Assembly: GCA_017305715.1 (NCBI GenBank)
Contig: JAFKKG010000009.1
Location: 372,001-436,000, forward strand
Length of the DNA stretch: 64,000 bases
Origin: Hyphomicrobiales bacterium
GTDB lineage: Bacteria; Pseudomonadota; Alphaproteobacteria; Rhizobiales; Xanthobacteraceae
Direction of reading: 5' to 3'
The position numbers and the translations under genes are program-made. The notes under the pieces were generated by a model that was not told the DNA's origin, ran no database searches, and was given only the letters and a program-made list of their open reading frames with translations. This document shows positions 2,164 through 46,164 of this stretch, piece after piece (position 1 is the first letter of the stretch; every line of letters begins with the position of its first letter).

Positions 2164-2600
2164 GTAATCCAGTTACTATCATCATGATCGAGGACGACGA
2201 GGGCCATGCCCGACTGATCGAGCGGAACATCCGCCGTTCCGGCGTCAACAATGAGATCATTCCGTTCACCAACGGTACAGCCGCGCTGAAATACCTGTTC
2301 GGCCAGGATGGGACGGGACTGGACCATAAGGGGAACGCGCTGTTGATCCTGCTCGATCTCAACCTGCCCGATACGTCGGGCATCGATATCCTCAAGCAGG
2401 TCAAGGAAAACAAATACCTGAAGGCAACCCCGGTCGTGGTTCTGACCACAACAGACGATTCCCATGAAATAAAGCGCTGCTACGAACTCGGTTGCAACGT
2501 GTACATCACCAAGCCGGTGAATTACGAAAGCTTCGCCAACGCCATTCGCCAGCTCGGCCTGTTCTTCTCCGTCATCCAGGTACCACCAGCCGCCACATGA
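2160..2600 (+). CDS. Single-domain response regulator, Rcp1-like
   Basis: A 146-residue stand-alone receiver domain. The acidic pocket is IEDDEGH near residues 10-16, the phosphoacceptor is Asp66 in LLDLNLPDTSG, and the conserved Thr and Lys follow (VVLTTTDD, then ITKPVN). Early FTNGTAALKYL and the length match the Rcp1 family that partners bacteriophytochrome-type kinases. There is no output domain, so it probably relays phosphate or acts by protein contact. Its start overlaps the stop of the upstream kinase and its stop overlaps the start of the next gene (both ATGA), which implies translational coupling of the three. Confidence 0.9.
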   Translation: MSNPVTIIMIEDDEGHARLIERNIRRSGVNNEIIPFTNGTAALKYLFGQDGTGLDHKGNALLILLDLNLPDTSGIDILKQVKENKYLKATPVVVLTTTDDSHEIKRCYELGCNVYITKPVNYESFANAIRQLGLFFSVIQVPPAAT

Positions 2601-3691
2601 CCCCTGCGACGCCGACCCTGCTCTATATCGACGACGACGCCGCGTTGGCGCGGTTGGTTGACCGCGGCCTGACGCGGCTCGGCTTCAAGGTCGTGCACGC
2701 CGCCGACGGTCAATCGGGCCTCGATCGGCTGGCGCAGGGCGGCATCGACGCCATCGCGCTCGATCAGCACATGCCCGGCCTCGACGGCCTTGAAACACTG
2801 GAGCGGATTTCGGCGATCCCGGGCGCACCACCGGTGGTGTTCGTCACCGCATCGCAGGATTCGGCGATCGCTGTCACCGCGCTGAAGGCGGGTGCGGCCG
2901 ATTATCTGGTCAAGGATGTCCAGGGCGATTTCATCCCCCTGCTCCAGGTCGCCGTGACCGGCGCATTGCGCCAGGCCGCCCTGCAAAAAGCCCGCGATGA
3001 GGCCGAGGCCGAAGTGCACGCCTCCCGCGACCGCTACGCCGCGCTGGCCGCCGAGCGTGAGGTGTTGCTGCGCGAAGTCAACCATCGCGTGGGCAACTCC
3101 CTGCAGATCATCGCATCGCTGCTGCATTTGCAGGCCAATTCGGCTGTTCAGGACGACGTCAAGGCCGCGCTCACCAACGCGATGGGGCGTGTCGCCGCGG
3201 TTGCCCAGGTGCATCGCCGGCTCTACACCTCGCATGATCTGAAAAGCGTGCTGCTGAACCAGTATCTCGAGGCGCTGCTGGAGGATCTGCGGCGCTCCGC
3301 CGAGGGCAACAAGATGTCGCGCCTCACGCTGACGGCCGAGCCGATCGAGATCGATCCGGACCGCGCCGTCGCCATCGGCATCATCGTCAACGAGTTGGTG
3401 ATGAATGCCGTGAAATACGCCTACCCCGATGGATCCGGTCCCATTCACGTCGAGCTGAACGCGACGGGCGATGATGTCGTGCTGGCGATCGCCGATGACG
3501 GCGTCGGCCTCAACGTCAAGGCCGATCCGCGTTCCACCGGCATGGGCCAGCGCATCGTATCCGCGATGGCGTCAAAACTTGAAGCCGACGTCGCGCGCGA
3601 CCCCGCCCATGCCGGGACAAGGATCGTGCTGCGCTTCCGCCGCGTCAGTGCCCCGGCGCCGAAGTCCGCGAACGCCGCGGCGGCCGGCTAG
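2597..3691 (+). CDS. Response regulator fused to HisKA_2-type histidine kinase
   Basis: 364 residues, started at the ATG that overlaps the previous stop (2597). An in-frame start 35 codons upstream would add a tail without domain sense. The N-terminal receiver has DDDAALA near 12-18, Asp56 (ALDQHMPG) and the Lys of LVKD. A short coiled linker leads to a HisKA_2 dimerisation domain with phosphoacceptor His163 (EVNHRVGNSLQII), then an HATPase domain (NELVMNAVKYAYP, DDGVGL). The REC-kinase order means it can receive phosphate from the first kinase and start a second phosphotransfer. HisKA_2 kinases of alphaproteobacteria often serve light or general-stress pathways, but no such partner (PhyR, NepR, EcfG) is present here. 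Confidence 0.9.
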   Translation: MTPATPTLLYIDDDAALARLVDRGLTRLGFKVVHAADGQSGLDRLAQGGIDAIALDQHMPGLDGLETLERISAIPGAPPVVFVTASQDSAIAVTALKAGAADYLVKDVQGDFIPLLQVAVTGALRQAALQKARDEAEAEVHASRDRYAALAAEREVLLREVNHRVGNSLQIIASLLHLQANSAVQDDVKAALTNAMGRVAAVAQVHRRLYTSHDLKSVLLNQYLEALLEDLRRSAEGNKMSRLTLTAEPIEIDPDRAVAIGIIVNELVMNAVKYAYPDGSGPIHVELNATGDDVVLAIADDGVGLNVKADPRSTGMGQRIVSAMASKLEADVARDPAHAGTRIVLRFRRVSAPAPKSANAAAAG

Positions 3692-7072: not shown

Positions 7073-7086
7073 GTGACATCCGTCAC
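7073..7086. promoter_or_regulatory. CRP-like palindrome GTGA-N6-TCAC
   Basis: The sequence TGTGACATCCGTCACA contains a perfect GTGA-N6-TCAC palindrome that also matches the longer CRP consensus TGTGA-N6-TCACA. Its centre is about 90 bp before the ATG at 7169. It belongs to the set of matching sites at 35770, 36491, 36882 and 46186. Binding by a CRP/FNR-family protein is inferred from the motif. Confidence 0.55.
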
Positions 7087-8373: not shown

Positions 8374-9360
8374 CTAGTTTCCGAACAATCCGCCGAACAA
8401 CCCGCCGGGCCGCTGCTGCGGCGGAGGTGGCGGCTGTTGCTGGAATTGCGGCTGCGGCGGCAGGCCCGACGGCGGCGGACGCGGCGCGGCCTGCTTCGGC
8501 GCCGGCGGACGCTTGGCGACGGGAGGCGGTGGCGGCGGCTTTGGCGGTTCGGGCTGCGCGCTGACGATGGTCTGGTCCGGGCCTTTGCAGTCGGTCAGCC
8601 AGATATCGTAGACCGGGTGCTCGACGCCGTGCAGGCCGGGGCTTGCGGCGTACATCCAGCCCGAGAAGATCCGCTTCACCTCGCCCTGCAGCGTGATCTC
8701 GTCGACCTCGACAAAGGCGTCGGTGTTGGCGGCTTCCGTGGCCGGGCGGGTGTAGCAGGCCGATGTCTTCACGCGCAGCGCGCCGAACTGGACGGTCTCG
8801 CCGATATCCTCGTCGAAATTGATGATACGTCCGGTGATCTTGTCGAGGCCCGAAAAGCTCGCCTTCTTGTTGGTCACCTTCGATGCCGGCGGCTCGGACA
8901 CCACCTCGTCGCCCGGCTGCAGGCTGGCGGAGGCCGGCGGCACCGGTCCCTTGGGCTGGCGCTGTCCCGGAGCCGGACTGCCCGGCGGCGCGTTGGCAAC
9001 GCCCGGCCCACCCGGCTGCGGCGGCGCTACCGCGATACCCGGCTGGGTATTCTGCGGAACCACGGTGGAGCCCGGCGGCGGTGCCAGCGGCTGAGTCTGC
9101 ACGCTGCCGGGGGCCGGCACGCCCTGCCCCGGCGGCAGACGGTTTGGCGTCGGCAGCAGGCGGCCGCGCGGCAATTCCGGCACTTCCTCGTCGTCGTCGG
9201 GCGGCTGCTGTTGCTGATTTCCACGCGGGATCGCGCCCGGCGGCCGCAGCGGCGGATCGGAAAAAATATTGCCGATCTGCGCGCGCGCGGGCGGCGCAAG
9301 CGAGATTGTCGAGGCGGCCAGCAGGGCCGCAAAACCAGTCAGGGCAATGGTTCGAAACAT
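8374..9360 (-). CDS. DUF2155 domain protein, secreted, proline-rich
   Basis: 328 residues. A Sec signal peptide (about 1-27, cleavage after PARA) is followed by a Pro/Gly/Gln-rich low-complexity stretch to about residue 155. Next is the DUF2155 domain: LDKITGRIINFDEDIGE, then ACYTRP, TDAFVEVDEITL, FSGWMYAASPGLHGVEHPVYDIWLTDC. Two conserved Cys flank the domain. The C-terminal 80 residues are again Pro-rich and end in LFGGLFGN. The family is common next to complex I and cell-envelope genes in alphaproteobacteria, but its function is unknown. An outer-membrane or periplasmic role is likely. It is convergent with the gene ending at 8320. Confidence 0.85.
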   Translation of the reverse strand: MFRTIALTGFAALLAASTISLAPPARAQIGNIFSDPPLRPPGAIPRGNQQQQPPDDDEEVPELPRGRLLPTPNRLPPGQGVPAPGSVQTQPLAPPPGSTVVPQNTQPGIAVAPPQPGGPGVANAPPGSPAPGQRQPKGPVPPASASLQPGDEVVSEPPASKVTNKKASFSGLDKITGRIINFDEDIGETVQFGALRVKTSACYTRPATEAANTDAFVEVDEITLQGEVKRIFSGWMYAASPGLHGVEHPVYDIWLTDCKGPDQTIVSAQPEPPKPPPPPPVAKRPPAPKQAAPRPPPSGLPPQPQFQQQPPPPPQQRPGGLFGGLFGN

Positions 9361-32841: not shown

Positions 32842-32935
32842 CTTCGCAACCACGATGACGCGTTCGCAATTGTTGTCAAATAACTCGAATATAATGTCTG
32901 TTGACCTAATGAATGGCCCCACCGCTACAGCCCGT

Positions 32936-33015
32936 AGGGCGGATTAGCGGAGCGTAATCCGCCGGTATGCGTTTTTCGAAGGCGGCGGATTACGCCTTCG
33001 GCTAGTCCGCCCCTT
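32936..33015. repeat. Dispersed repeat, GGCGGATTA type
   Basis: GGCGGATTA (32938-32946) pairs with TAATCCGCC (32955-32963) around GCGGAGCG. A second imperfect hairpin (GGCGGATTACGCC ... TAGTCCGCC) follows at once. Related units occur at 34395-34496, 35660-35756, 36084-36168 and 43722-43798. With the rest of the 336-bp gap (32842-33177), no gene is seen. Confidence 0.65.
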
Positions 33016-33177
33016 CCGCGACGCCGGACACATCCGCGCTTGGGCAACTTGCCTGCTTCCCCTCAGGTTTTCCTGTGCGGCATCAAACGCAAGGGGCCGC
33101 CAACGGAGGCGGCCCAATGCTGTTTCGTGAACCCCCAATTGGGGCCGCCCCGCATGTCGGTGGGCGAGAAGCTGCAC

Positions 33178-33360
33178 TTACCTGGTCAACTGGTCCAAAA
33201 TCGCCTGAAACCGTTGGGACGGATCGTTCATGCCGCTCGATCCGCCCGCCTTCGCGCGAATATTTGCGAAGAAGTAGGAGAAAAAGCCGCCGGCAACCTG
33301 GTCGAGGTCGGCGTCCGAAACAGCAGCCTCGGTGTTCTGGTTGTTCTGGTTCGCATTCAT
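33178..33360 (-). CDS. Small double-glycine leader peptide (GG peptide 1)
   Basis: 60 residues from ATG 33358-33360, with GGAGA five bases upstream. The leader (1-25) ends in SDADLDQVAGG, the pattern of Nif11/class-II-bacteriocin-type leaders cut after Gly-Gly by peptidase-ABC exporters. The 35-residue remainder begins FFSYFFANIRAKAGG and is polar at the end, without Cys. Two further intact genes (35859, 36223) and one broken gene (45839) share the leader motif but not the core. A GTGA half site lies 84 bp upstream (33437). Precursor of an exported peptide is the best guess; bacteriocin activity is unproven. Confidence 0.7.
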   Translation of the reverse strand: MNANQNNQNTEAAVSDADLDQVAGGFFSYFFANIRAKAGGSSGMNDPSQRFQAILDQLTR

Positions 33361-33436
33361 GGTCTTCTCCAACGTTTCGGTGCGGGATCATTCCCGGCAT
33401 CCATCGTGGAGATACCCGCGATCGGTCCGGCCGAGT

Positions 33437-33450
33437 GTGATATGTCGCCA
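33437..33450 (-). promoter_or_regulatory. Degenerate CRP-like site before GG peptide 1
   Basis: Read in the direction of the gene the site is TGGC-GACATA-TCAC. Only the gene-proximal half (TCAC) is intact, but the centre is 84 bp from the start codon, as for the other peptide genes. Confidence 0.35.
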
Positions 33451-33511
33451 GAGAATATCTTGATTTTTGCTTGAGAACGTCGTGACGCTCTCTGAAGATG
33501 CCCTCGCCTGC

Positions 33512-33883
33512 TCACGCATTTGCGCTTCGCATTGATTTATCCGACAGCCACGAACACACCGCGGCCGGCACGCCTCCGACAAGCCCGACCATCAGGACTG
33601 GCCATAGCTCGTCTGATCCTCCCGACAGGAAGCGCACGATCAGGACGGCCGCCAGTGCCGCCGTGCCCGCCGTTCCCATGACCCGCAGACGGGTCGGCTT
33701 TGCGGAAAGCGCCCAATCGACCCAAGCCAGCAGCAACGCGGGAATGACCGCGATCGCGTACACCATTTGGAAGGACGACGAATCCATCAGTCTGAAATCG
33801 TGACGCGTGATCATGTCGGGGGCGTTGAAGACGACCAGCGCGAGAGGCGGAAAGAGAACCGCGAAAATCAGAAGGCGCTTCAT
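33512..33883 (-). CDS. Small membrane protein, DUF5413-like
   Basis: 123 residues from ATG 33881-33883. Four hydrophobic segments are seen: LIFAVLFPPLALVVF at the N-terminus, then MVYAIAVIPALLLAWVDWAL near 40-59, VMGTAGTAALAAVLIVRFL near 68-86, and PVLMVGLVGGVPAAVCSWLS near 95-114. It resembles small Bradyrhizobium membrane proteins grouped as DUF5413, from memory and with limited certainty. It stands between GG peptide 1 and the 49-residue gene at 34169. Any link to peptide export is speculation. Confidence 0.6.
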   Translation of the reverse strand: MKRLLIFAVLFPPLALVVFNAPDMITRHDFRLMDSSSFQMVYAIAVIPALLLAWVDWALSAKPTRLRVMGTAGTAALAAVLIVRFLSGGSDELWPVLMVGLVGGVPAAVCSWLSDKSMRSANA

Positions 33884-34168
33884 GTGACCAGACCCGCCTG
33901 AACCCGATGATCCGGAACCACGGCCATCCCGGCTTTCGACGCCATGAAGCTTTGCCCAGTGCTGGCGCAGGGCCAGTTCGCAGGGCGGAACGGCGCCGAT
34001 GGCTTCGTCATCAGTGCCGCCAAAGAATGTGGCACGGGACCGGCCTGGCCACGTCCAACCCAAAACACACTGCCGTGAACGAAACCCTTTGTCCGGGATC
34101 GCGAAGCCGTCCTGAAACAAACCCCTCTTACCTTGTGATGTAACCTAACACGCTTAAGGGAGAGCGGA

Positions 34169-34318
34169 ATGCGTACTCTCATATTTGGCGTCATGTTACT
34201 CGCCGTCGTGGCCGCTGGATCATCCTACACATTGATCTCGTCCTCGCTTGCGGCATCCCGGGACGCGAAAGCGGCGACATTCGCCGAACGATTTGCCCCG
34301 GCCCTCTGGCAGCAATGA
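34169..34318 (+). CDS. Small single-helix secreted or membrane protein (49 aa)
   Basis: Frame MRTLIFGVMLLAVVAAGSSY and on to FAPALWQQ, stop TGA 34316-34318. AAGGGAGAG lies 5-8 bases before the ATG. A hydrophobic helix at residues 3-16 looks like a signal peptide or anchor. It is too short for family assignment; the ribosome site and composition are the support. Confidence 0.5.
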   Translation: MRTLIFGVMLLAVVAAGSSYTLISSSLAASRDAKAATFAERFAPALWQQ

Positions 34319-34394
34319 CGAAGTCCGCCGGCGCTGTCACGTCGGCGAAACCACTTCGCTGACGCTGTCGATAGCTTGCAGGGCGGTTTGGGGC

Positions 34395-34496
34395 GCGGCG
34401 TCATCCGGCGCCTTGCTCCGAAAGCGGCGGATGACGCTTCCGCCTTCGCCCTGCGAGCTGCGGCGGACAGGTCGGCTAATCCGCGCTACCCCTCGT
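34395..34496. repeat. Dispersed repeat, GGCGGATTA type
   Basis: GCGTCATCCGGCGCCTTGCTCCG is followed by GGCGGATGACGC and later GGCTAATCCGC. The segment CCTTGCTCCG-AAAG-CGGCGGA recurs at 36110-36135 (CCTTGCTCCGGAAAGGGCGGA), which shows the two are copies of one element. It ends at the ArsR stop. Confidence 0.55.
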
Positions 34497-34803
34497 CGGC
34501 CATCCCCAAAATCGTCTTCAGCAATTTCGGAAACCGCGCGTTGATATCCGCCTCGCGGACCACGTTGCGGTGCTCGACGCCTTTTTTCGAGGTCTGGATC
34601 AGCCCGGCTTCGCGCAGCACGCGAAAATGGTTCGACAGGGTCGATTTGGCCATGCCGGGGCAAGGTGCTGCTTCCGTGCAGGACATGCAGTCCTTGCGCT
34701 CGAGCAGGCTTTTCACGATGCGCAGCCGCATCGGGTCCGCCAGCGCTGCCAGCACTCCGGCCAATGTGATGTCCTCGCGCGGCGGATGAACGAATTGCAC
34801 CAT
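34486..34803 (-). CDS. ArsR/SmtB-family repressor
   Basis: 105 residues from ATG 34801-34803. It has a winged helix with LAALADPMRLRIVKSLL near 18-34 and recognition region MAKSTLSNHFRVLREAGLI near 51-69, then the wing SKKGVEHRNVV. Cys residues in RKDCMSCTEAAPCPG (near 37-51) could sense a metal, thiol or redox change. It is divergent from an SDR gene over 98 bp containing a perfect 13-bp-arm palindrome (34834-34866). That suggests it represses itself and the SDR. Confidence 0.88.
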   Translation of the reverse strand: MVQFVHPPREDITLAGVLAALADPMRLRIVKSLLERKDCMSCTEAAPCPGMAKSTLSNHFRVLREAGLIQTSKKGVEHRNVVREADINARFPKLLKTILGMADEG

Positions 34804-34833
34804 GCCCAAATATATAGCGCTCCCCTTGAACAG

Positions 34834-34866
34834 GTTCAATAGTTCACTATTACTGAACTATTGAAC
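34834..34866. promoter_or_regulatory. Operator palindrome of ArsR-type repressor
   Basis: GTTCAATAGTTCA-N7-TGAACTATTGAAC, 13 bp perfect arms. Inner 6-mers AGTTCA/TGAACT are also palindromic. It lies between the ArsR start (34803) and the SDR start (34902), so one bound dimer could block both promoters. Confidence 0.75.
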
Positions 34867-34901
34867 GAACGCGCCACAAGCGCGACGATGGAGAATGCAA
34901 C

Positions 34902-35651
34902 ATGACCAAGAGACTTGAAGGCAAAGTGGCGCTGGTAACCGGCGCATCCAAGGGCATCGGCGCCGAGATCGCCGCCCGCCTGGCCGCGGAAGGGGCGTCG
35001 GTCGCCGTCAACTACAGCGCCAGCAAGGAGGCCGCCGACCGCGTGGTGGCGGCGATCAAGGGCAAGGGCGGCAAGGCCGTCGCCGTCCATGGCAATCTGA
35101 GCGACGGCAACGGCGCAAAAAAGGTGGTGGCGGAAACCGTCAAGGCGTTCGGCGCGATCGACGTCCTCGTCAACAATGCCGGCATCTATGAGTTTGCGCC
35201 GCTGGACGGCATCACGCCCGAGCACTTCCACAAGCATTTCGATCTCAACGTGCTCGGGCTGCTGCTGGTGTCGCAGGAAGCCGCGCGGCATTTCAATGAC
35301 GGCGGCAGCATCATCAACATCAGTTCGGGGGTGTCGACGATCGCGCCGCCGAATTCCGCGGTCTACACCGCGACCAAGGCGTCGGTCGACGCCATCTCCG
35401 CGGTGCTTTCGAAGGAACTGGCGCCGCGCAAGATCCGCGTCAATACCGTCAACCCCGGCATGATCGCCACCGAAGGCGTGGTTTCGGCCGGCCTCGCCGA
35501 AGGCGATATGCGCAACTGGATCGAGTCCGCCACGCCGCTCGGGCGGATTGGCAAGGTCGAGGAAATCGCGGCGGCGGTCGCCTTCTTCGCGTCAAGCGAC
35601 GCGTCCTATATCACCGGCGAAACGTTGCACGTGACGGGCGGCCTGCACTGA
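34902..35651 (+). CDS. Short-chain dehydrogenase/reductase under ArsR control
   Basis: 249 residues. TGASKGIG coenzyme loop near 13-20, NNAG near 90, catalytic Ser (NISSGVS), YTATK with Tyr and Lys, and GETLHVTGG at the end. VNYSASKE after the second strand favours NADP(H). It resembles 3-oxoacyl-ACP-reductase-like or glucose-dehydrogenase-like SDRs of xenobiotic and stress operons; the substrate is not known. It is divergent from the ArsR gene across a shared operator. Confidence 0.9.
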   Translation: MTKRLEGKVALVTGASKGIGAEIAARLAAEGASVAVNYSASKEAADRVVAAIKGKGGKAVAVHGNLSDGNGAKKVVAETVKAFGAIDVLVNNAGIYEFAPLDGITPEHFHKHFDLNVLGLLLVSQEAARHFNDGGSIINISSGVSTIAPPNSAVYTATKASVDAISAVLSKELAPRKIRVNTVNPGMIATEGVVSAGLAEGDMRNWIESATPLGRIGKVEEIAAAVAFFASSDASYITGETLHVTGGLH

Positions 35652-35659
35652 CCGGCGCG

Positions 35660-35756
35660 CCGTCGTACCGGCGGATTGGCGAAGCGTCATCCGCCGGTAC
35701 CTGCTTTCCAAATCGGCGGCCGCGCCTTGCGCCGACCGACTGGGCTGGTCCAACTT
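35660..35756. repeat. Dispersed repeat, GGCGGATTA type
   Basis: GTACCGGCGGAT (35665-35676) and ATCCGCCGGTAC (35689-35700) are perfect 12-bp arms around TGGCGAAGCGTC. A trailing GGCGG...GCCGACC part follows. Same family as 32936. Confidence 0.65.
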
Positions 35757-35769
35757 GCCGCCGCAAGAT

Positions 35770-35783
35770 GTGAGTTAGATCAC
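35770..35783 (+). promoter_or_regulatory. CRP-like palindrome before GG peptide 2
   Basis: GTGAGTTAGATCAC, followed by GGAAAGG. Centre 82 bp before ATG 35859. Shares TCACGGA with the sites at 36491 (minus orientation) and 46186. Confidence 0.6.
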
Positions 35784-35858
35784 GGAAAGGCACAAGTTGC
35801 GCTTCCATCGTTCATGACGTGACGGATCATCCGCTCACTGGAACCAGAGGAGAAGCGC

Positions 35859-36059
35859 ATGCCTGCGATGAGCAACAGCGAAGCACGTACAACCCAAGAC
35901 GGCGTGGACGTTCTGGCGGACACCGATCTTGATCCCGTAGCTGGCGGAGTTTGCCGCGAGCCGGACAAGGTCATCGTGATTGATTTGCCGAACCTCGGGA
36001 TTGCGTTCACTTACTCGAATTGCGGCGGCACCTTCAACATGTGGAACTTCAACAGATAG
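35859..36059 (+). CDS. Small double-glycine leader peptide (GG peptide 2)
   Basis: 66 residues from ATG 35859 with GAGGAG seven bases upstream. The leader (1-30) ends LADTDLDPVAGG. The core of 36 residues contains two Cys (VCREPDK and YSNCGG), alternating hydrophobics (KVIVIDLPNLGIAF) and ends NMWNFNR. The Cys pair could form a disulphide or be modified. It shares the leader pattern and the upstream CRP-like site with GG peptides 1 and 3. I cannot assign a product class; automated databases often file such proteins as bacteriocin-like. Confidence 0.7.
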   Translation: MPAMSNSEARTTQDGVDVLADTDLDPVAGGVCREPDKVIVIDLPNLGIAFTYSNCGGTFNMWNFNR

Positions 36060-36083
36060 GGTTAGGGTGAGACCGGGTTACAC

Positions 36084-36168
36084 CGACGGCGCGCGGATTG
36101 AATCGCACGCCGCCTTGCTCCGGAAAGGGCGGACCACGCTTCGTGATCCGCCCTGCCCGCTCGCATAG
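36084..36168. repeat. Dispersed repeat, GGCGGATTA type
   Basis: GGCGCGCGGATTGAATCGCACGCCGCC, then CCTTGCTCCGGAAAGGGCGGA and CGTGATCCGCCCTGCCCG, in order like the copy at 34395. It separates GG peptides 2 and 3. Confidence 0.55.
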
Positions 36169-36222
36169 GTCAGCGATGTTCGTCGGGTTGACGAGGCCGC
36201 TTTCAGCCCCGACGGCCCACCC

Positions 36223-36411
36223 CTAGGCGATCATCGTCCGCCCGCCGCCAAAATTGATATTCGCCCAGGGCAAATAAAACTGTTTGACCCAGTTCAGGTA
36301 CTGGAGTTCGCCTTCGATCGCCCGCCGTCCGCCGCTCACCTGATCCAGTTCGACAACGGTCAATTCGACCGTGTTCTGCCGGCTGCCGGGTTCATCGTTT
36401 CGCGTGTTCAT
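36223..36411 (-). CDS. Small double-glycine leader peptide (GG peptide 3)
   Basis: 62 residues from ATG 36409-36411 with GGAG six bases upstream. The leader (1-28) ends LTVVELDQVSGG. The core (34 residues) is aromatic: ELQYLNWVKQFYLPWANINFGGG, without Cys. It is convergent with GG peptide 2. The gene's 5' region has a 7-bp inverted repeat (GAAGGAT-G-ATCCTTC, 36435-36449) and a perfect CRP-like palindrome 86 bp from the start. The core differs fully from the other two peptides, so the genes are not recent duplicates. Confidence 0.7.
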   Translation of the reverse strand: MNTRNDEPGSRQNTVELTVVELDQVSGGRRAIEGELQYLNWVKQFYLPWANINFGGGRTMIA

Positions 36412-36490
36412 GTTCTGCTCCGTTGCACAAGAAAGAAGGATGATCCTTCGATCCATCCGGTCAGGGTGAGACCACAGCGATTCAATTTCC

Positions 36491-36504
36491 GTGATTTGAA
36501 TCAC
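36491..36504 (-). promoter_or_regulatory. CRP-like palindrome before GG peptide 3
   Basis: GTGATTCAAATCAC in the gene direction, followed by GGAAATTGAATCGC. Centre 86 bp before the start codon. Very similar to 46186 (GTGATCTGAATCAC). Confidence 0.6.
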
Positions 36505-36550
36505 GAGCGCAGCGCCGGCGGACCGGTCGGCTCCGATCCGCCCCGCCGCT

Positions 36551-36751
36551 CTACTGACCGGGGCTGTTCGGAGCCTTATCCAGGAGGTCGTAGATTTCGT
36601 CGGGCGTTTCCCGAACCGTGACGGCTGCCTTGTCACTCAGGAACTGGATGGTCGTCGCGTTGGCGGTCCGTTCGAAATACGCGACCGCGCTCATATTGAC
36701 ATGGATGACGCCAGTAGAATTTTCGCGGTTGAGCTCAAGAAAAGTAAGCAT
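36551..36751 (-). CDS. Small FlbD-like protein
   Basis: 66 residues from ATG 36749-36751 with a strong GGAG 8 bases upstream. The layout MLTFLELNRENSTGVIHVNMSAVAYFE, ATTIQFLSDKAAVTVRETPDEIYDLL follows the FlbD/small beta-barrel pattern: short strands, a residue-specifying loop, then a helix after a conserved Glu-x-Pro-Asp-Glu. FlbD of flagellar operons is of similar length but no flagellar genes are here. The CRP-like palindrome 137 bp upstream places it with the GG peptides. Function unknown. Confidence 0.62.
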   Translation of the reverse strand: MLTFLELNRENSTGVIHVNMSAVAYFERTANATTIQFLSDKAAVTVRETPDEIYDLLDKAPNSPGQ

Positions 36752-45756: not shown

Positions 45757-45770
45757 ATGGTCCGCGTCAC
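45757..45770 (+). promoter_or_regulatory. Degenerate CRP-like site before the broken GG peptide gene
   Basis: ATGG-TCCGCG-TCAC then GGCTGAACCCGCGCTTCC. The downstream half is intact and the centre is 76 bp before ATG 45839. The following GCGCTTCC recurs after the site at 35770. Confidence 0.35.
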
Positions 45771-45838: not shown

Positions 45839-46164
45839 ATGACGCGCGATCGCGAAGCAAGCGCGCAAGAGCCTCCTCCGAACAACTCGAACTCGTGGCG
45901 GGAGGATCCGTGATCCAGGAGATGATGGCAAACCTCAAGCTGATGGGCGAAATCCTCTCGAACGTCAGCAAGACGCGCTCCGAGATCAGCATGACGTTCG
46001 CGCGCCACGCGCGGGCGCAATTGATTTGCCGGCGGACGAATCAGAATCGCGCGCCAAGAGAAAAGGCCGGCGGGCGTTACGCCACCGGCCTTCTCTTGCA
46101 GCTGCCGGCCCAGGTCCGGTTCCGCCGCGATTCCATGACGGAAATCCTGGGTGAGCTTGGTTAA
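45839..46164 (+). pseudogene. Frameshifted double-glycine leader peptide gene (GG peptide 4)
   Basis: ATG 45839 has GGAG six bases upstream and reads MTRDREASAQE before stopping at codon 25. The other forward frame, open from 45814, reads SSEQLELVAGG and then SVIQEMMANLKLMGEILSNV, SKTRSEISMTFARHARAQ. Joining the two at about 45871 gives a normal leader peptide of the type at 33178. A one- or two-base change there would explain the break. The second frame runs on to 46164 through a terminator hairpin, so its original stop is also lost or the read-on is meaningless. A sequencing error is possible. Confidence 0.55.
46059..46096 (+). terminator. Rho-independent terminator
   Basis: AAGGCCGG (46063-46070) pairs with CCGGCCTT (46085-46092), and the loop holds an inner GGCG/CGCC stem. 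TCTCTT follows. It is positioned to end the transcript of the frameshifted peptide gene. Confidence 0.75.

Follow-up and report, generated by a model that had tools for sequence, protein, structure and literature searches.

Double-glycine leader peptide genes in a Hyphomicrobiales genome: evidence for a dispersed regulon, probably under CRP-type control and served in trans by an NHLM exporter

RESULTS

Three leader peptide genes and a relic

A stretch of 64,000 nucleotides from the genome of a Hyphomicrobiales bacterium (Xanthobacteraceae; assembly GCA_017305715.1, contig JAFKKG010000009.1, positions 372,001 to 436,000), referred to here as the window, contains three short genes, P0001, P0002 and P0003, for small proteins whose leader peptide ends in Gly-Gly (GG). 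This analysis concerns these genes, others like them elsewhere in the same genome, a palindromic box upstream of most of them that may be an operator for a protein of the cAMP receptor protein (CRP) type, and the exporter that may serve them. The open reading frames (ORFs) of the three were found exactly where a first-pass annotation made from the letters alone had placed them, each with an ATG start and a purine-rich ribosome site. The leader of P0001 comprises the first 25 residues (33286–33360) and ends in SDADLDQVAGG, and the core of 35 residues starts FFSYFF; P0001 has no Cys. In P0002 the first 30 residues (35859–35948) form a leader ending in ADTDLDPVAGG, followed by a core of 36 residues with two Cys, and in P0003 a leader of 28 residues (36328–36411) ending in VVELDQVSGG is followed by a core of 34 residues. 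All three proteins fell below every cut-off in profile searches of both the Pfam and the NCBIfam libraries.

A fourth gene had been described as broken, and it is. The leader end SSEQLELVAGG (45874–45906) is out of frame with the ATG at 45839, and its own frame has no ATG, GTG or TTG from the preceding stop up to SSEQLELVAGG, so this copy is a relic. Upstream of it is a decayed form of the palindrome. The exact palindromes before P0002 and P0003 were absent from the first-pass annotation. The coordinates are collected in Table 1, where, as in the text, genomes, loci and contigs are referred to by G, L and C numbers.

Table 1. GG-leader genes of the window and their upstream boxes; distances are in bp from the start codon or ATG.
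Feature	Position	Strand	Remarks
P0001, GG-leader peptide gene	33178..33360	minus	60 aa; paralogue L023 and homologue in G231
Degenerate box of P0001, GCGACATATCACAC	33435..33448	minus	2 mismatches; -88
P0002, GG-leader peptide gene	35859..36059	plus	66 aa; core with two Cys
P0002 box, GTGAGTTAGATCAC, proposed CRP-type operator	35770..35783	plus	-89
P0003, GG-leader peptide gene	36223..36411	minus	62 aa; orthologues in G280, G209, G285, G220
P0003 box, GTGATTCAAATCAC	36491..36504	minus	-93
Relic of fourth GG-leader gene	45839..46164	plus	ATG with ribosome site at 45839
Decayed box of relic, ATGGTCCGCGTCAC	45757..45770	plus	2 mismatches; -82

Leader genes across the host genome

If the three genes belong to a family then the leader motif should recur, and it was present in many other small ORFs, both in the host genome (7.45 Mb in 51 contigs) and in relatives. 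The strict motif, back-translated as YTNGANNNNGTNDSNGGNGG, was found at 45 places in the host genome compared with 11 for a reversed control. Inspection of the 45 translations by eye sorted them into 16 intact leader genes (15 with short leaders and one with a long NHLP leader), the relic and 28 other reading frames. A relaxed motif was found at 139 places compared with 24 in the control, and the part that was read, 30 loci and 20 chosen regions, contained five further genes. Scanning for the box first, with 30 loci read from 208 places having a box and an ATG, brought to light three more leader genes whose motifs have diverged, one of them directly behind the exporter operon described below. 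In total the host genome contains at least 24 GG-leader genes plus the relic, scattered over many contigs, with small clusters at C1:172-174 kb, C36:18-20 kb and C35:90-102 kb in addition to the three genes of the window. A chance origin of the leaders was rejected given the motif counts of 45 versus 11 and the control counts for the box presented below.

The leaders of the 24 peptides are 17–31 residues long except for one of 84 (L032:1770-2126). The cores have 23–48 residues with 0–2 Cys each, and the pI exceeds 7.5 in 21 of the 24. Every one of the 24 has V or I at position -4 from the scissile bond, L or M at -7 and L, I or V at -12, of which -4 and -7 were largely search criteria while -12 was not. 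According to PMC7018657, the C39 peptidase of peptidase-containing ATP-binding cassette (ABC) transporters binds the residues at -4, -7, -12 and -15. The conservation of leaders with divergence of cores, on which the first-pass annotation had built its case, was borne out between the paralogues, for which the mean pairwise identity among the 24 peptides was 0.46 for the final 14 residues of the leader versus 0.20 for the cores, part of the leader likeness arising because the genes were picked by the leader motif. It failed for the orthologues of P0003, in which the core is conserved better than the leader (see below). Clear paralogue pairs are P0001/L023 and L029/L030. The core motif NPQPLPP was seen in the boxed GG peptides of L029, L030 and L177, which come from two genera (g1 and g10).

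A palindromic box at a fixed distance

An exact GTGA-N6-TCAC was found upstream of 16 of the 21 genes that had been defined by their leader alone, P0002 and P0003 among them. The box starts 71–119 bp before the start codon in these 16 genes and at 86–94 bp in 12 of them; in L023, the paralogue of P0001, it is exact and at -86. When the other 255 half-sites were tried on the same 21 genes they gave an average of 0.04 genes and two at best, and when the spacer was varied from 0 to 19 a spacer of 6 gave 16 genes and each other spacer gave 0 or 1. Four more genes have a possible box with one mismatch (L014 at -91, L081 at -91, L043 at -96 and L032 at -144). Of the 146 long ORFs in the window and L047, many of which are surely spurious, two carry an exact box in this range of distances. 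The 16 genes agree in the eight box bases and the 6-bp spacer and differ in the inner and flanking bases, but since they were selected for having an exact box, 16 of 21 against 0.04 is the fair measure.

Such a box could reflect common descent only, in which case the palindrome would be a passenger, or else a CRP element of a general kind, with no role in controlling the peptides. The two clear paralogue pairs and the promoter region common to P0001 and its homologue in G231 would fit this. It would not readily account for the retention of eight bases and their spacer amid variable neighbouring bases, nor for the count of 16 of 21 against that for the other half-sites, and we regard descent alone as very unlikely.

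A palindrome at a fixed distance is what would be expected of a CRP-type regulon. The operator of E. coli CRP and of Rv3676 is TGTGA-N6-TCACA (PMC3938503), and the box has the same eight bases and spacer. Judged by this likeness, GTGA-N6-TCAC would be an operator bound by a CRP-type protein. The host genome has 13 matches over the cut-off for the Crp-type helix-turn-helix (PF13545). A recognition helix of the form R-E-S-x-N-K/R was found in two of them, L305 (ARESVNR) and L306 (TRESINK), while the helix of L307 was unreadable. L306 also has a cyclic-nucleotide domain, and its best Protein Data Bank matches are the Crp/Fnr-family regulators 3i54 and 3d0s, with RETVNK aligned in the recognition helix; we take both entries to be the mycobacterial Rv3676. 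L305 and L306 are candidate regulators of the boxed genes.

A single C39 exporter on another contig

No exporter had been noticed in the window, and the first-pass annotation supposed that the genes would be served in trans. A profile search of the host genome gave a single C39 peptidase match, of 130 bits, on a contig other than that of the window, with which service in trans fits. The match belongs to an operon with genes for HlyD, C39-ABC and a second ABC (L047:4808-11200) that scores over the NHLM cut-offs (TIGR03796, 1060 versus 853 bits; TIGR03797, 861 versus 709; TIGR03794, 293 versus 156). Residues 29–739 of the exporter align with bacteriocin transporter chains such as 4ry2, and the C39-ABC sequence contains ECGAA, NHFVVL and NDP, presumably the motifs that supply Cys, His and Asp in active C39 peptidases. 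Immediately behind the operon there is a gene for a boxed GG peptide whose core is rich in Gly (L047 4680-4516, minus strand). Export of the peptides by a C39-peptidase ABC transporter is supported by these features of the sequence, and the cores would be cleaved off and secreted. The two nearest named exporter loci with full coverage are those of Bradyrhizobium sp. JYMT SZCCT0428 and AUGA SZCCT0176, at 92% identity, and by this kinship the host genome is that of a Bradyrhizobium.

Several further features were seen around the exporter. Among the genes listed for six exporter loci, one that diverges from the operon is conserved, and none beside the exporter could be named as a regulator. The product of this gene (L047:11430-12029, divergent from the NHLM HlyD) is a conserved protein of about 175–199 aa with homologues at L168, L177 and L209, thus at four exporter loci; for the L047 copy no match was found in Pfam or NCBIfam at E 0.01. 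Also near the exporter, L047:2386-4239 encodes cyclic-nucleotide-binding and patatin phospholipase domains in one protein, weakly like TIGR03896, a bacteriocin-type transport-associated protein (41 versus 161 bits). Near-identical copies of one boxed peptide, with a VCGG leader and the core FINDGGC or FFNDGGC, lie to either side of the NHLM operon and point in opposite directions (L168, with its boxes at 8851 on the plus strand and about 1550 on the minus strand; also L219, L220, L221 and L223), and the copies look as if they flank a mobile or invertible unit.

Relation to known peptide classes

The peptides agree with the GG peptides of peptidase-containing ABC transporters in having the expected residues at -4, -7 and -12 and a C39 exporter in the same genome. 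The first-pass annotation had pointed to leaders of the Nif11 and class II bacteriocin types. Membership of Nif11 (N11P) was rejected, as no Nif11 model was among the nine families matched by the 24 peptides at E 0.01 and none was matched in Pfam by P0001–P0003. The NHLP model (TIGR03793) was not matched by the window peptides and was matched by one of the 24, the peptide with the 84-residue leader (E 2e-21; NHase_alpha in Pfam). With regard to class II bacteriocins, P0001–P0003 scored below the cut-offs of the curated leader models (P0001, 12.2 versus 40 bits for a bacteriocin-like model; P0003, 12.5 versus 32 bits for the CTB family).

The exporter triad is the same as in the NHLM system of Haft and colleagues (2010; PMC2887384). 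The NHLP and N11P precursors in that paper have a GG site, hypervariable cores, several copies per genome and some members far from the exporter, all as here, whereas their leaders average 83 and 70 residues compared with 17–31 in 23 of our 24. The leaders of class II bacteriocins and microcins (average 24 for TIGR01847 in PMC2887384) are similar to ours in length and in their ending before GG; P0001–P0003 nevertheless have no match at E 1 to TIGR01847 or TIGR03949, and the genes here are dispersed. Two of the 24 peptides matched TIGR03949 weakly (best E 0.0041). The peptidase-containing transporters of the pneumococcal rtg, com and blp systems resemble this one in that GG peptides are read via -4, -7, -12 and -15 and the locus is switched by a regulator; in rtg, regulator, transporter and peptides are in one locus, whereas here a palindrome joins scattered genes and the exporter is outside the boxed set (PMC7018657). 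GG peptides and NHLM exporters are already known, as are precursors far from the export genes (PMC2887384); the main text of that paper contains neither the word Bradyrhizobium nor the word promoter. No description of a box-controlled regulon of GG peptides with short leaders was found in the open-licence literature.

The peptides might instead be precursors of ribosomally synthesised and post-translationally modified peptides (RiPPs), with the modifying enzymes acting in trans. The gene of the one NHLP precursor neighbours a JmjC_2 oxygenase gene, three of the 24 peptides matched the CCRG-2 RiPP leader model (best E 9.5e-6), and one boxed peptide of a relative exceeded the CCRG-2 cut-off (26.2 versus 24 bits). 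However, the cores are not Cys-rich, and no modifying enzyme was seen by eye near the window genes, although LanM, YcaO and radical SAM enzymes were not searched for genome-wide. This makes RiPP precursors an improbable identity for the set. The NHLP gene (L032:1770-2126, contig C35) is followed after about 160 bp by the oxygenase gene (2286-3539), and these may be a peptide and its modifying enzyme.

Box, leader and exporter in relatives

The association was examined in named relatives using the best 80 loci with an NHLM C39 gene. At 14 of 24 Bradyrhizobium/Xanthobacteraceae loci an exact box is followed by a ribosome site and then by a GG-leader ORF, giving 32 peptides in 0.48 Mb, these 24 loci including close relatives and so not being independent. 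The other 255 half-sites gave an average of 0.15 peptides and at most five at the same loci. At the exporter loci of other groups, 0.99 Mb in all, the box with a GG-leader ORF was found in 0 of 56, and the idea that the box marks every NHLM system was rejected. The cores at the relatives' exporter loci appeared by eye to range from Gly-rich to membrane-helix-like.

An NHLM C39-ABC gene over the cut-off was found in 14 of 198 family genomes, scoring five candidates per genome, and in 36 of 117 genus genomes, scoring eight. Counts of the strict leader motif in the 117 genus genomes, which include unrelated reading frames, averaged 10.4 with the exporter versus 5.2 without (Mann-Whitney p = 5e-10, or 1e-9 without the host genome, kinship ignored).

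In 23 chosen family genomes with 138 motif places, 30 loci, for which 49 regions were taken, were read; the places left unread were chiefly V-G-G-G sites and motifs that kept turning up within long conserved genes, one of which, from its letters, we take to be RadA. Boxed leader hits (0–1 mismatch, -80 to -130) were found in G064, G196, G053, G055 and G177, all of which have a C39 match above 100 bits. No boxed hit was found in the NHLM-bearing genomes G010, G013, G018, G057, G060, G082, G098, G103 and G114, nor in G122, and some of these genomes hold unboxed GG peptides, partly with long leaders. The eight genomes without a strong C39 match (G024, G086, G105, G138, G153, G167, G187 and G189) have a few small unboxed ORFs with the motif (such as L138 and L156), of doubtful standing.

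Selection on cores and exchange of cores

P0003 and its promoter were found in at least four of the other 116 genus genomes, G280, G209, G285 and G220. Three of these have the exporter over the cut-off and the fragmented G285 has a partial match of 732 bits, below the cut-off. The box is identical in G280 and G209 and has one different spacer base in G220; none was found before the orthologue in G285. Among the five orthologues the identity of the core exceeded that of the leader in 9 of 10 pairs. The non-synonymous rate (dN) of the core was lower than the synonymous rate (dS) in 10 of 10 pairs (0.04 versus 0.39 for P0003 and G280), the sequences being short and the pairs non-independent. The P0003 core is under purifying selection. 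Cores that are conserved while the leaders vary were to refute the reading of the first-pass annotation; we take them instead as what a product with a target would show, and on the strength of P0003 each core would be a maintained product within its own orthologous group.

Conservation of the P0003 core also bears on two other functions for the cores. In one, the same cassettes and exporter would deliver cores that act on a plant host and not on other bacteria, comparable to the RaxX peptide of Xanthomonas. RaxX leaves its cell through a peptidase-containing transporter. It is a precursor of 60 residues with sequence and functional similarity to plant PSY peptides (PMC6637879). Many of the named carriers are rhizobial species, and purifying selection on the P0003 cores fits a fixed receptor. 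Against this, no core appeared plant-hormone-like by eye, though no search aimed at plant mimics was made, and some cores of relatives (L222, L224) are Gly-rich or membrane-like by eye and so look more like bacteriocins. A role in the plant is therefore judged unlikely. In the other, the cores would be pheromones passed between cells of the same strain, with which the conserved core of the P0003 orthologues and a weak match between P0003 and the VP1 pheromone model agree. That match, 17 bits versus a cut-off of 85, is far under the cut-off, and at least 24 different cores per genome seem more than signalling would need, so that pheromones appear less likely still. Bacteriocin-like competition is the leading guess for the function of the cores because they are many and diverse and have membrane-like members in relatives.

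Elsewhere the core can be exchanged with leader and operator kept, as in L035 compared with the G196 gene in L209 and in P0001 compared with the G231 gene. The promoter region is common to the latter two (81% over 33350-33502) and their C-terminal tails are alike (ND....FQ.IL.QLT), while the start of the core is different. It is tempting, if less than probable, to see promoter plus leader as a portable cassette that captures new cores, so that one CRP-type signal would broadcast two dozen or more peptides via a single exporter.

DISCUSSION

The reading that we favour, with a probability of about three in four, is that the host genome has a dispersed regulon of at least 24 cassettes under CRP-type control whose products are exported in trans by one NHLM exporter. 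In a typical cassette the operator lies roughly 90 bp ahead of the start codon; next come a ribosome site, a leader ending in L-x-x-V-x-G-G and a private core that is usually basic. A CRP-family regulator, perhaps with a cyclic nucleotide, may bind the operator and, in whichever direction it acts, would control the set together. The NHLM C39-ABC exporter would dock the leaders, cut after Gly-Gly and export the cores.

Several results weigh against this reading. P0001 itself has only a degenerate box, and boxes precede other genes too, for example at window position 7073, 96 bp before an ORF of 383 residues. No box with up to one mismatch was found within 400 bp upstream of the exporter HlyD gene at any of the four loci checked; placing the exporter under the same box as the peptides was thus given up, and exporter and substrates are not co-regulated by the box. 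Ten of the 24 Bradyrhizobium/Xanthobacteraceae loci had no box with a leader gene in the stretch examined, several of them ending at contig ends. In the genus survey eight candidate exporters were scored per genome, the Mann-Whitney test takes no account of ancestry, G305 has 11 motif hits, unread, and no exporter match over the cut-off, and G285 has 15 with a partial exporter match. Boxed hits in 5 of 15 family genomes with a strong C39 match versus 0 of 8 without are too few to decide. Finally, G177 has boxed peptides and a strong C39 transporter that is below the NHLM cut-off, so NHLM is not the only setting in which the box occurs.

If promoter plus leader does act as a portable cassette, the nodulating bacteria of this genus would have a regulated, modular peptide secretome, so far unrecognised. 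Annotation easily misses small peptide genes whose cores diverge. With leader and operator as two marks of the same genes, a simple search could list much of the exported peptide repertoire of the genus, nitrogen-fixing symbionts included, and if the favoured reading is right the repertoire would be switched as a set. A cocktail of peptides under CRP-type control, directed against rivals in the soil and at the root or towards the plant, thereby becomes testable.

Other features of the window

The region 33000-36700 was compared with the 117 genus genomes, scoring two candidate places per genome. The segment 34505-35654, which we take to encode an ArsR-type regulator and an SDR enzyme, matched at 80–87% in 17 other genomes, and for G221 and G296 the stretches compared have no match to the three peptide genes. 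Exact GTGA-N6-TCAC sequences also occur at 7073, 32277, 36882 and 46186, none preceding a GG peptide. Palindrome-rich intergenic stretches at 32929-33012, 34373-34440 and 35670-35719 match several places in relatives and are probably a repeat family.

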